From: Deltaproteobacteria bacterium
Lineage (GTDB): Bacteria > Myxococcota_A > UBA9160 > UBA4427
Reading direction: 5' to 3'
NCBI GenBank assembly: GCA_029261855.1
Contig: JAJDAN010000083.1
Span: forward strand, 62,001-126,000
Length of the DNA stretch: 64,000 bases
The translations under genes and the position numbers were made by a program. Shown here piece by piece: positions 1,775 through 5,984 of this stretch; the stretch's first letter is position 1, and the number at the start of each line of letters is the position of its first letter. The notes beneath the pieces are model-generated. The model did not search any database. It had not been told where the DNA came from and saw only the letters and a program-made list of their open reading frames with translations.

Positions 1775-2314
1775 TCAGACGACGAGCTTGGCGAGCAGCT
1801 CCTCGAACGCGCGGTCCGCGATGTCCTGCATCTCGGCGTCGGTGCGGTCCTGGATCGGGTGCTCGACGAACACCGCGGCGAGGTCGGCGCCCAGGGCTGC
1901 CTGCTGACGCTCGGCGCCGTCGCAGAATTCAACCGTCGCTACGTAGACCGTCGGCAGGCCGCGCAGCTCCATCTCGGACATGTCGTGCACACTGCACGAC
2001 GTGCAGCTGCCTCAATCGGCGAGGGCTTCGATCACCGCGTCGCACTGGTTGGCGATCTCCGCGCGCAGATCGGCGGGCGCGGGCTTCGTGAAGGTGGGCT
2101 TCTGGTAGCGGCGGACCGTCGCGCCCTGGGCGTTCAGCCCGGCTTCGATGCGGTCGAGGAACAGGTCGCCCCGGGGCTTCGAGATGTCGAGCAGGCCCAC
2201 GGTCTTGCCGGAAAGGCTCTCCAGCCGAGGTACCCGGGCCCGGGCGGCCGGATGAGTCTCGGCGGTGGGGTCGAGCAGGATGCGGTCCTGCGAATTTCGT
2301 CCGGGTGCGCTCAT
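1775..2314 (-). CDS. UGSC family selenoprotein (in-frame UGA read as selenocysteine)
   Basis: A 179-residue protein if the TGA at 2012-2014 is decoded as selenocysteine (residue 101). The first 100 codons run from ATG 2314 and end ...VIEALAD; the frame continues after TGA as GSCTSCSVHDMSE and closes at 1775. The junction is therefore U-G-S-C-T-S-C, the motif that gives the UGSC (seleno)protein family its name; some members carry cysteine instead. Codon use and protein character continue unbroken across the TGA. A hairpin 11 bases after it fits a bacterial SECIS. The start overlaps the stop of the upstream thioredoxin-domain gene by ATGA, so the two are translationally coupled. The redox role is inferred from U/C chemistry; the substrate is unknown. 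If Sec insertion fails, a 100-residue truncated product results. Confidence 0.85.
1982..2000 (-). promoter_or_regulatory. candidate bacterial SECIS hairpin
   Basis: Read on the minus strand, GTCGTGC (2000-1994) pairs perfectly with GCACGAC (1988-1982) around the loop AGTGT. The stem starts exactly 11 bases after the UGA, the spacing found in the E. coli fdhF SECIS, and the loop contains a G-U pair of bases as SelB sites usually do. A competing shorter stem (CTGCAC/GTGCAG) overlaps it. The identification rests on position and structure only. Confidence 0.65.
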
Positions 2315-3810
2315 GCGTGGATCTCCTGGATGACGGGCTGGCTTCCCTTGTCGCCGTTGACCCAGCCGCCGATGATGGCCGAGAACAGCCCGGCACGTCC
2401 ACCGGCGTGAACGATCAAGATGCCTCCCGGTCGGAACTTCGGGATGGTCGCGTCCCGCAGCGCCTCCGGCAGCCCCTCTTCGATGCCGTCGGCACCGCGG
2501 ATGAGCTCGCGCCCCGGGAGCATCAGGTTCGCGTGCAACGCTTCGAGCAGCTTGGCCTTGTCCCAACCGGCCTGGTGGAAGACGCGCGCGTGTTCCGGGC
2601 CGATCACGAGCATGCAGTCGAAGGCCATCGCCATCTTGGGGTGCTGCACGGTTCGCAGGTTGACCGCCAGCGAGCGGGCGAGAGATTCCGGTGTGCGCGA
2701 AATCTGGTCGACTACGTTGCGCGGACCTTCGCCCGGGAAGAGGGTGACGGTGTCGATGCCGGCGTCGAAGCCCAGGTCCGTCGAGAGCGGGGTCCACGGC
2801 GAATCTTCTTCGTCTTCCGCAAAGCAGAACGAGAGCTTGCCCGGGTTGCCGAAGGTGGCGCGGTCGACCTCGCCCGGAAGCCCGCCGCCGACGTTGCGAA
2901 CCACCAGCTGAAGGGCGCGGCCGATGGTGAGATTTGCCCGGTTCCCCTGACCGAGGGCGTTGATGCCCGCGTTCATGCCAATCACGCGGCGGATGGGTCC
3001 GTTCACCACCAGCACCGGTCCGGCGCCCATGGTCGTTGCGAGCAGCCCGTGCATGTTGAAGGCGTCGGTGCAGGCCGCTTCGACGGCGGCGATCACCACC
3101 GGCAGGTACTCGGGGCGGCAGCCCGCCATGACCGCGTTGATGGCGATCTTCTCGACGCTGCACGGCGCGAGGTTCGGGGGCACGACCGCGACGACCTCGT
3201 CCGGCTTGCGCGTGGTTCCGCCGAGCATCTGCATGACACGCTCTGCGGTGGGGGGCACCAGCGGGAGCCCGTCGCTCCAGCCCCGGTTCCACATGGCTTC
3301 GAAGGGGTCTTCGGCAGCGCCCAGCTCGACTCGGCGCGCCCGCAGTACCGAGCCGCCGAAGCGCGCGGCCAGCTCGGCTTCCCGGTCGGGGTCGACGGAC
3401 AGCGATCCGCAGCCGGGCCGCCATTCCGGCAGGTCGAGGCCCAGGTCCGTCACACCCGAGAGCGCCTCCCACTCGCCGCGCTGCCAACCGACGGCGCGCT
3501 CGACTTCGCTGCCTTTCTCGACGCGCAGCAGGGTGGGGACCGCTTCGATGTCGTAATGCCAGGACCGACGCAACGAGGTGTCGTCCGTGGGGTCGAGGCC
3601 TTCCGGGAAGACCGGGTCGTCCTGGGTGTAGATGGTGAGCGCGACGCCCGCGGCGCGAAGCTGCGCGAGGGCGGGCAGCAAGGTCACACAGGTCGGGCAG
3701 TCGCGCTTGACGAAGGCCACCACGCCGTCGGGCAGGGCGGGGCGTTCCGTTTCCGGTGTGGCCTCAGGTGTGGCACCGACGCTGCCTGCAACGGGGGGTG
3801 CGTTGCTCAT
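2311..3810 (-). CDS. thioredoxin-domain protein fused to UGSC-associated domain
   Basis: A 499-residue protein. Residues about 28-125 look like a thioredoxin fold with the redox motif CPTC (C38, C41) followed by a cis-Pro segment (EAVPTLLRVE). The remaining 350 or so residues form a second domain with the sequence NRGWSDGLPLVPPTAERV and several glycine-rich stretches (NVGGGLPGEVD, GGILIVHAGGRAG). To my recollection similar proteins neighbour or are fused to UGSC proteins. The next gene is the UGSC selenoprotein, overlapping by 4 bases, so a joint thiol/selenol redox function is likely but unproven. A TATCGT box 7 bases before its ATG suggests a promoter of its own inside the end of the HupE gene. 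Confidence 0.75.
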   Translation of the reverse strand: MSNAPPVAGSVGATPEATPETERPALPDGVVAFVKRDCPTCVTLLPALAQLRAAGVALTIYTQDDPVFPEGLDPTDDTSLRRSWHYDIEAVPTLLRVEKGSEVERAVGWQRGEWEALSGVTDLGLDLPEWRPGCGSLSVDPDREAELAARFGGSVLRARRVELGAAEDPFEAMWNRGWSDGLPLVPPTAERVMQMLGGTTRKPDEVVAVVPPNLAPCSVEKIAINAVMAGCRPEYLPVVIAAVEAACTDAFNMHGLLATTMGAGPVLVVNGPIRRVIGMNAGINALGQGNRANLTIGRALQLVVRNVGGGLPGEVDRATFGNPGKLSFCFAEDEEDSPWTPLSTDLGFDAGIDTVTLFPGEGPRNVVDQISRTPESLARSLAVNLRTVQHPKMAMAFDCMLVIGPEHARVFHQAGWDKAKLLEALHANLMLPGRELIRGADGIEEGLPEALRDATIPKFRPGGILIVHAGGRAGLFSAIIGGWVNGDKGSQPVIQEIHA

Positions 3811-3825: not shown

Positions 3826-5043
3826 TCAGAAGTTGCGGCCCACCAGCCAGAAGAGCCCCAGCCCGAAGATGGCTGCGGAGCCGGCTTCGGCGACCCAGCG
3901 ATGGCTCGTGGCATGGGTTCTCGCCAAGGCGTGGAGTAGCGGCCAGGCAACGATCACCACCGCGAGCTGGCCGAGTTCGACGCCGACATTGAACCCGAAC
4001 AGCGCAGCGACCAGACGATCCGTGGGGAGTGCGAGTTCCATCAGGATGCCGGCGAAGCCGAAGCCGTGGATCAGACCGAAAGCGAACGCGACCGCCGCGC
4101 GCAGGCCACCTGGACGCGCGGTCGACCGGAGCAGCGCGAAGTGACACCCGGAGAAGAGCGCGAGCCCCAACCAGGCGACCGGTCGCAGGGCTCCTTCACC
4201 GAAGAGCGAGATCGCCGCACCGAGCCCGAGGGCGAGCAGCACCGCGCGCAGGATCCAGCGGTCGCGTCCGGCCATCAGCCACACGTTCTCTACCGCTACC
4301 AGGGCGATGGAGAAGCCGATCAGGACTTCCACGGAAAGGCTGTCGGGCCGCACCACACCGAGCACCGCCAGGCCCAGGGTGAGGCTGTGTCCGACGGTGA
4401 AGCCCGTGACGAGTCCGGCGACCTCGCGCAGGGACGCGGCGAGCAGCAACAACGCGAGCACGAAGGCGAGGTGGTCCCAGCCCGTGGCGATGTGGAGCGC
4501 ACCGAGCCAGACGTAGCTCGCGAAGGTGCTGGGTGCCGCGTCGCCGGCTTCGCCGTCGATCGCCCATGCGCCGTCGCGACCCGTCACGAGCACGCGTTCT
4601 CGGACACCGGGACTCGCGGTGGGGTCGGCCTGGGTCTGGGCTCGAGCTTCGGGATCGATCCGCAGGAAGTGGGTATGGGACGGCGCGCTCGCGCGCAGCA
4701 GATCGCTCGCGATGGCGCGCGCCCCGGACCGCTCGCAGCGGATGCGCCAGCGGAAGATCGCCCAGCCCTCGGGTGCCGAGGCGGACCGTCGGGCCTCGTC
4801 CGCCAGGCAGGGTGCGCCGTCGACGAAGAGCGCGAGCTCGGCGGGGAAGGCCTGGGTCCAGGGATGCCCGGGCGGCTGACGCGTCAGTTCGAGCAGCTTG
4901 ATGCGAAGCTCGACCTGCGCCCCGGTCTCGTCGAGCCGCCAGGTCGAGTACGACATGCTGCGGGCGTGCCCCGCGGCGGGGCCCGCGAAGGCGAGCACCG
5001 CCGTCGCCACCGTCAGCGCCAACGCGATCCCGCGCGAGGTCAC
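3826..5043 (-). CDS. HupE/UreJ family membrane protein
   Basis: A 405-residue protein. A signal peptide (about residues 1-25) precedes a periplasmic beta-rich region of about 170 residues. Six or seven membrane helices follow, opening with HIATGWDHLAFVLALLLL, the histidine/aspartate signature of the HupE/UreJ-2 family. Short HupE proteins are nickel or cobalt permeases; the long form with a periplasmic domain is usually of unknown role. The start is GTG at 5043, overlapping the stop of the upstream peptidyl-prolyl isomerase gene (GTGA), so translation is coupled. Downstream lie the thioredoxin-domain and UGSC genes with a 15-base gap. Confidence 0.85.
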   Translation of the reverse strand: MTSRGIALALTVATAVLAFAGPAAGHARSMSYSTWRLDETGAQVELRIKLLELTRQPPGHPWTQAFPAELALFVDGAPCLADEARRSASAPEGWAIFRWRIRCERSGARAIASDLLRASAPSHTHFLRIDPEARAQTQADPTASPGVRERVLVTGRDGAWAIDGEAGDAAPSTFASYVWLGALHIATGWDHLAFVLALLLLAASLREVAGLVTGFTVGHSLTLGLAVLGVVRPDSLSVEVLIGFSIALVAVENVWLMAGRDRWILRAVLLALGLGAAISLFGEGALRPVAWLGLALFSGCHFALLRSTARPGGLRAAVAFAFGLIHGFGFAGILMELALPTDRLVAALFGFNVGVELGQLAVVIVAWPLLHALARTHATSHRWVAEAGSAAIFGLGLFWLVGRNF

Positions 5044-5984
5044 GACGACGGGAATCGCAGGTCGGCTTCCGTTCGCAACCGATCCAGATAGCTGCGCAGG
5101 CTCTGGTCCCCGGCGCGACGTCGCATCTCCGCACGAACCTGCGATTCCACCACCTCGAGGGGCTGCGGCGGGCTGGACGCGCGCTCGACCATCTGGAGGA
5201 CGTACCAGGCGGACCCGCCTCGCACCGGGTCGCTCACCTCACCGGTCGTGAGGCGGGTCGCGGCGAGGGCCGGCGTGGGGCCCAGGTATTCGCGCAGCTT
5301 GTTCGCCGGCAGGAAGCCGTCGGGGAGCGGTACGACGCTCGCGGCGCCCAGCGCCTCGCGCACCGCGGCGAGATCTTCGCCTTGTCGCAGCCGCAGGCTG
5401 GCTTCTTCTGCCCTTGCCCGGGCGTCGCCCTGCTCGCGTCCGTCGTCGTCTCGCGAGACGGCGAAGCGCAGCTGGCGCACCCAGTAGCGGTCGGTGCGGG
5501 CGAAGAAGTCGCGGTTGTCGTCGTAGAAGCGCGCGACCTCGTCGTCATCCGGTTCCTGCTGCCCGACACCCGACACGATCGACTCGATCATTGCGGCTAC
5601 CAGGGTATTGCGAACCACGGGGTCGCTGCGGTCGAGCCCCAGTTCCTGCGCGCGTTGGACGAGCAGCTCTTCTTCGATCAGCCGATTGAGCACGTGCGCG
5701 CGGTCGGTGTCCGACAGCGGTTCCCGGCTGTCTTGCGCCAGGGCGGCGAGGGCGCGCTGGTAGTTCGCGTCGCGGATCGCGATGCCGTTCACCGTCGCGG
5801 CCGCGTCCTCGGGCCATGCCGGCCCCGGCGCGTTCTCGGCGATGCCTGCAACGGCGAGGGCGAAGCCCGTCGCGGCGCCGATCGCCAGCAGCCAGCGCCC
5901 CCGTGCAGGGGTGCCTTCCGGGGAACGCTCGATTCGTTTCGGGTCGCTTTCGGACAACGCTTCCTCCGCGGAGCGACGCAGCAT
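5040..5984 (-). CDS. membrane-anchored parvulin-type peptidyl-prolyl isomerase
   Basis: A 314-residue protein. The ATG at 5984 was chosen because it gives a short charged N-terminus and one membrane segment (about residues 31-48, WLLAIGAATGFALAVAG); longer reading frames run into non-coding sequence. A SurA-like helical region (DRAHVLNRLIEEELLVQRAQELG) is followed by a degenerate PpiC/parvulin domain at about residues 150-270. It probably assists folding of exported proteins in the periplasm. It is the first gene of the unit with hupE, the thioredoxin-domain gene and the UGSC gene. PpiC next to long HupE proteins is, as I recall, a recurrent pairing. Confidence 0.8.
   Translation of the reverse strand: MLRRSAEEALSESDPKRIERSPEGTPARGRWLLAIGAATGFALAVAGIAENAPGPAWPEDAAATVNGIAIRDANYQRALAALAQDSREPLSDTDRAHVLNRLIEEELLVQRAQELGLDRSDPVVRNTLVAAMIESIVSGVGQQEPDDDEVARFYDDNRDFFARTDRYWVRQLRFAVSRDDDGREQGDARARAEEASLRLRQGEDLAAVREALGAASVVPLPDGFLPANKLREYLGPTPALAATRLTTGEVSDPVRGGSAWYVLQMVERASSPPQPLEVVESQVRAEMRRRAGDQSLRSYLDRLRTEADLRFPSS

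Follow-up and report, generated by a model that had tools for sequence, protein, structure and literature searches.

The window (the whole stretch of 64,000 nucleotides that was analysed) carries on its minus strand a gene for a UGSC-type protein and, directly upstream, a gene for a larger protein referred to here as its partner (Table 1). The UGSC gene runs from an ATG at 2314–2312 through an in-frame TGA at 2014–2012 to a terminal TGA at 1777–1775, on a strand that the original prediction had left unstated. The frame EALAD-UGA-GSCTSCS is otherwise open, as had been claimed: readthrough gives 179 residues with zero further stops, the residues around the UGA being ...AVIEALAD-U-GSCTSCSVHDMSEMELRGLPTVYVATVEF... 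and the UGSC motif occupying residues 101–104. The anticipated splitting of the gene by a gene caller into pieces of 100 and 71 residues also finds its counterpart in a GTG-initiated ORF of 71 aa at 1775–1990. The protein passes the cut-offs of both Pfam and NCBIfam (144.3 bits against PF24696, cut-off 25; 150.4 bits against NF041046, cut-off 125), which places it, as proposed, in the known but functionally uncharacterized UGSC family. This family and its selenocysteine (Sec) nature have been known since at least 2008, and the accessible part of PMC2398784 describes it as 'UGSC-containing protein'. The window protein shares with the family the UGSC motif with its in-frame UGA and SECIS hairpin, Sec and Cys members both exist, and no difference was found, the protein being an ordinary member of the subgroup with a third Cys and a thioredoxin (Trx)-bearing partner. 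On the Paracoccus ferrooxidans plasmid pFER4, a Sec-type UGSC gene is annotated as two 'hypothetical proteins' (5381–5668 and 5708–5950 of locus L257), a mis-annotation of the split-ORF kind; this plasmid also carries selB, ~3.4 kb downstream of the partner gene, and co-transfer of Sec decoding is possible.

Table 1. Features of the UGSC–partner locus, with positions in the window.
Feature	Position	Strand	Basis
UGSC selenoprotein CDS (predicted), 179 residues, single in-frame UGA	1775..2314	-	PF24696 and NF041046 matches
Candidate apical hairpin of a bacterial SECIS; stem of 7 bp, or 8 counting the closing A-U pair; loop AGUGU, its GU conserved	1982..2000	-	11 nt after UGA; exchanges in homologues; conserved beyond codon constraint
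UGA codon 101, predicted selenocysteine, U of UGSC	2012..2014	-	TGA in 78/81 and Cys in 3/81 phylum homologues; TAG in two Geodermatophilaceae
ATGA overlap of partner stop and UGSC start	2311..2314	-	Direct reading
AGGAG, RBS-like, 8 nt 5' of the UGSC ATG	2323..2327	-	Direct reading
Partner CDS of 499 residues; thioredoxin domain joined to an unnamed domain of ~310 residues	2311..3810	-	
Unnamed partner domain, occurring beside UGSC genes	2314..3330	-	No Pfam, NCBIfam or PDB sequence match
Partner N-terminal part, thioredoxin-like domain; CPTC at 3688–3699 (residues 38–41)	3331..3810	-	Profile E 5e-5; Foldseek prob 1.00; motif in alignment consensus
Gene for a HupE/UreJ_2 membrane protein, 15 nt 5' of the partner start	3826..5043	-	PF13795

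The predicted hairpin GTCGTGC-AGTGT-GCACGAC has its arms at 2000–1994 and 1988–1982, on either side of the loop AGTGT, and it does start 11 nt past the UGA. The claimed identity of this spacing with that of E. coli fdhF is exact, 11 nt having been measured at fdhF codon 140 in NC_000913 (TGA CACGGCCCATC GGTTGCAGGTCTGCACC). The window has 1197 TGA trinucleotides over its two strands, and UGA-101 alone is followed by a perfect 7-bp stem at that distance. The folding energy of the hairpin is unexceptional for its composition (z = -0.15); the structural case therefore depends on conservation, and a synonymous-recoding test was used in place of folding energy, which is uninformative as proof of a SECIS. 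An Rfam scan of the window gave zero matches. In the recoding test, based on 48 distinct 36-mers and 300 trials in which codons were redrawn for the same proteins, at least seven contiguous pairs are kept in 32 of the 48 relatives versus 2.8 expected (maximum 7). At stem pair 17/23, 32 of these 36-mers have C-G and 12 have G-C; at pair 15/25, 36 have U-A and 6 have C-G. The loop GU is retained in 42, with other hairpins or weak ones occurring in some divergent UGSC subgroups. By this comparison the putative SECIS hairpin is conserved beyond codon constraint, with compensatory changes.

The Sec machinery (selC, selA, selB and selD), whose presence had been put forward as a check, was found in full in the genome that carries the window (6.96 Mb, 98.6% complete): a tRNA-Sec of 66 bits, called SeC(tca) by ARAGORN, SelA at 517 bits, SelB at 273 bits and SelD at 338 bits. 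The selD gene (G000:C24:63971–64897, L020) carries one in-frame TGA and its product is apparently a selenoprotein itself. A phylum survey of 284 genomes gave UGSC matches above cut-off in 48, with up to seven matches per genome, and the 80 loci retrieved hold 81 copies. The codon at the Sec position is TGA in 78 of them and a Cys codon (TGT or TGC) in 3, so the exchange of Sec for Cys that was sought at position 101 is seen precisely there in the aligned homologues; none of these ends or is frameshifted at this codon, and the protein is conserved on either side of the TGA. Cys-type copies occur in genomes that also bear Sec-type ones (L060 and L122 in G177, L102 in G276) and, outside the phylum, in haloarchaea and Arthrobacter (plasmid relatives in both), Roseovarius and Variovorax. 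Within the class, a true tRNA-Sec (at least 57 bits) accompanies 39 of 47 UGSC-bearing versus 6 of 12 UGSC-free genomes, the exceptions being mostly incomplete assemblies. UGSC selenoproteins of the Geodermatophilaceae were described as decoded at UAG by a tRNA-Sec with a CUA anticodon (PMC5330540). They belong to the same family with Sec at the same residue, and differ from the window gene, which employs UGA and a UCA anticodon. The Sec codon was indeed found to be TAG in Geodermatophilus obscurus and Blastococcus massiliensis, and both genomes encode a tRNA of the tRNA-Sec family with anticodon CUA (L262, L263; labelled tRNA-Pyl by ARAGORN). This agreement is about the strongest evidence obtainable from sequence. 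The window gene thus appears, with near certainty, to encode a genuine selenoprotein in which UGA-101 would be recoded as Sec via the SECIS hairpin.

The partner gene was not part of the original prediction, and neither were the thioredoxin domain and the link to GrdB discussed below. Residues ~29–118 of the partner constitute a thioredoxin domain with a CPTC motif, according to profile and Foldseek matches to thioredoxins. This part alone finds matches, the ~310-residue domain having zero sequence matches in Pfam, NCBIfam or PDB. Foldseek related the partner weakly to class I fumarases (E 1e-3, prob up to 0.94) and more weakly to cyclic amide hydrolases, with TM values of 0.15–0.37, and a kinship with either was not relied on. 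Homology of the partner to UGSC or to GrdB was also rejected, profile alignments being negative (0.1% probability). Translational coupling of the two genes through the ATGA overlap is expected from its arrangement.

A partner gene lies within 700 nt and on the same strand in 75 of the 81 phylum copies of UGSC, either upstream or downstream. Four of the other copies are of the third-Cys type and their genomes hold exactly one full-length Trx-partner elsewhere; the remaining two are located on contigs of at most 9 kb. When GTDB genomes were scanned with the partner, at least 588 stretches matched and at least 583 of these were confirmed; a complete UGSC gene is present in 75 of the best 80 loci from these matches. 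The pair also occurs in Actinomycetota, Pseudomonadota, Chloroflexota, Acidobacteriota and haloarchaea. On a Vibrio europaeus plasmid (L258:5323–7008) a UGSC-like domain and the partner domain are encoded by a single fused ORF; it has Met at the Sec/Cys position and is adjoined by aconitase X and DUF126 genes. The fusion is perhaps a non-redox descendant, and since the Sec/Cys residue is lost in it, not every pair can use selenol or thiol chemistry. A fusion of UGSC to a domain called 'Unknown_1' appears in the accessible part of PMC2398784, and it may be guessed that this domain is the partner described here. The window's own genome contains a second pair (G000:C56:8533–10128; L009, L025, L059), which lacks the Trx domain, carries the motif UGSCTSWS and lies directly 3' of an Amidohydro_3 gene. 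UGSC and the partner very probably act as one functional unit, because of the same-strand proximity, the recurrence across phyla, the Vibrio fusion and the lone Trx-partner in genomes with unpaired copies.

The third Cys of the motif (UGSCT[ST]C) goes together with the thioredoxin domain. All 38 third-Cys copies with a complete partner have a Trx-fused one (four further copies have a partial partner match), versus 0 of 33 UGSC copies without the third Cys. The third Cys is likewise present in 75 of 75 complete UGSC genes from the best 80 Trx-partner loci, which cover several phyla and were selected for the Trx domain. This correlation may come partly from shared ancestry, that is, from a single fusion in an ancestor instead of repeated independent ones. 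Where no Trx fusion exists, separate genes are found nearby: the order is trxB-trxA-partner-UGSC in Arthrobacter and partner-UGSC-trxB in Roseovarius, and trxB is near the pair in Variovorax. The Arthrobacter TrxA and the thioredoxin domain of the window gave no significant similarity in BLASTP and are therefore at most distantly related. Thioredoxin is a likely electron donor of the UGSC–partner enzyme, because of the correlation of the third Cys with the fusion and the trxA or trxB genes near unfused relatives.

AlphaFold2 modelled the UGSC protein with a pLDDT of 94 as five alternating strand-helix units with U101 between strand 3 and helix 3, and comparison of the model with PDB structures returned generic Rossmann-like matches only. 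The fold is thus predicted to be Rossmann-like; a Trx-like fold of the Sec domain, suggested as a guess in the accessible part of PMC2398784, is contradicted by the alternating beta-alpha order of the model. When the UGSC family was aligned by hhalign with a GrdB of the same class (L215, ...STUGTCTRCGATM...), Sec fell on Sec with 95% probability (E 2e-8, 32% identity over 73 columns), versus 0.1% in two negative controls. NCBIfam models for GrdB, GrdF, PrdB or GrdH reach up to 42 of 75 UGSC members (GrdB 40, GrdF 42, around the Sec), in each case below the cut-offs. The window protein itself scores 20.8 bits against the GrdB model TIGR01917 (cut-off 602.2), over residues 87–129 and not the full length. 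Judged by these profiles, UGSC is a remote relative of the Sec domain of glycine reductase GrdB. A weak GrdB-like PF07355 match without an in-frame stop lies elsewhere in the genome (L236, G000:C84:44744–44989). No GrdE/PrdA-type subunit (PF09338) was recognized in the partner, 0 of 68 partner proteins matching any such model at E up to 0.1, and a PF09338 sequence for the GrdE comparison was absent from the three genomes searched. The partner association, the Rossmann-like fold and the GrdB relation were not found stated in the accessible parts of the family literature, PMC2398784 among them.

The HupE/UreJ_2 gene upstream of the partner is possibly on the same transcript. A relative of it occurs near UGSC in 10 of 160 loci, the window counted, and it is therefore probably outside the system; the HupE/UreJ, PpiC-type isomerase and LOG-type neighbours at the window locus were all discarded as parts of it, as they are not conserved next to UGSC. 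In the wider family, the neighbourhood of UGSC consists of catabolic and uptake genes: amidohydrolases, P450, SDR, acyl-CoA dehydrogenase, CoA transferase, CoA ester lyase, Lyase_1, isocitrate lyase/PEP mutase family, aconitase X and a ComA-like protein, together with TRAP and TTT transporters. The ComA-like (phosphosulfolactate synthase) genes lie near pairs in Natrinema and Arthrobacter (L254:2847–3314 and L255:3668–4456), a possible hint at a sulfonated or phosphorylated C3 substrate. Users of glycine reductase have several substrate-specific B modules per genome (PMC10838667), to which the multiple UGSC copies within one genome can be likened.

On balance the selenol subunit UGSC and its partner would constitute a thioredoxin-driven, GrdB-like two-subunit catabolic enzyme, a reading held with somewhat better than even confidence. 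The UGSC subunit, whose Sec is placed in a UxxCxxC motif where strand 3 ends and helix 3 begins, would contribute the nucleophile, a selenolate, in the manner of GrdB in the glycine, sarcosine and betaine reductases; the substrate would be held by the partner domain. Attack by the selenolate of Sec-101 would leave it oxidised or bound, and Cys104 and Cys107 would resolve it as a selenenylsulfide or disulfide. The partner's CPTC thioredoxin domain would then reduce it again; in relatives separate TrxA/TrxB would do so. The pair is likely to serve a catabolic pathway by reducing a small organic molecule or cleaving it reductively. By analogy with GrdB, bond-cleaving chemistry may be involved rather than plain thiol-disulfide or peroxide reduction, although confidence in this step falls slightly short of even.

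Plain redox chemistry leads to a different view, in which the pair would be a general thiol/selenol enzyme of redox defence or repair (a disulfide, peroxide or sulfoxide reductase), with the partner as scaffold and its Trx domain as reductant. The UxxC motif next to a thioredoxin partner domain is consistent with it, in likeness to many UxxC selenoproteins, and so is the fact that many carriers come from groups that are typically aerobic, among them Acidimicrobiia, Myxococcota and haloarchaea. Reviews also presume redox roles and Trx-like folds for most uncharacterized selenoproteins, as far as the accessible parts of PMC13188914 and PMC2398784 go. Nevertheless, a predicted Rossmann-like rather than Trx-like fold, a Sec region homologous to GrdB and not to redoxins, neighbours that are catabolic enzymes and uptake systems instead of stress genes, and several paralogous pairs per genome with differing neighbours make it unlikely. 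More doubtful still is a non-reductive enzyme, in which the Sec nucleophile would serve addition, elimination or group transfer with an organic acid or a CoA-bound compound as substrate and thioredoxin would only repair oxidised Sec. The weak Foldseek similarity of the partner domain to class I fumarases, and weaker to cyclic amide hydrolases, agrees with it, as do neighbouring genes of the aconitase X, isocitrate lyase, CoA ester lyase and Lyase_1 families, but these fold matches have low TM values, and the recurrent trxB/trxA linkage suggests stoichiometric electron use. An ordinary stop at the UGA, or a decayed pseudogene, with a downstream frame open by chance, has a vanishingly small likelihood, for although standard gene calling splits the gene and the hairpin energy is unremarkable, 78 of 81 relatives share the in-frame TGA within a protein conserved on both sides, the codon is exchanged with Cys and with TAG, and the Sec machinery is complete.

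The preferred reading, a thioredoxin-driven two-subunit enzyme, is best compared with GrdB, GrdF and GrdH of glycine, sarcosine and betaine reductase and with PrdB of D-proline reductase. The Sec regions are alike (UGSCTSC and UGTCTRC, Sec on Sec, with similar downstream G-[IL]-P and HP), and so are the presence of a second subunit, the Trx-dependent system and the several substrate-specific modules per genome. However, UGSC matches these proteins over its C-terminal ~75 residues only and below every curated cut-off, and its carriers are mostly other than the fermentative clostridia. Additionally, the second subunit of glycine reductase is of the GrdE type, whereas the UGSC partner bears no resemblance to it at the HMM level and no pyruvoyl subunit like GrdE or PrdA was recognized. 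A further parallel is FarB/FarE of Cloacibacillus porcorum, which serves monofluoroacetate dehalorespiration (PMC10838667) and pairs a Sec subunit resembling GrdB with a second subunit that is not of the pyruvoyl type, the C-X bond being broken by selenolate attack in the proposed mechanism. FarB differs in lacking the CxxC that UGSC retains, and FarE is related to GrdE, which the UGSC partner is not recognizably.

More tentatively, UGSC and its partner could represent a separate class of thioredoxin-driven selenol/thiol enzymes, with GrdB-type chemistry but without GrdA or a pyruvoyl GrdE, widespread in bacteria and present in a Cys form in haloarchaea, that would be encoded in catabolic operons and cleave C-X bonds in small organic acids. 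The partner, its built-in thioredoxin domain, the GrdB relation and the operon context make the function of UGSC testable, as they narrow it to two proteins, a likely reductant and a few pathway neighbours.
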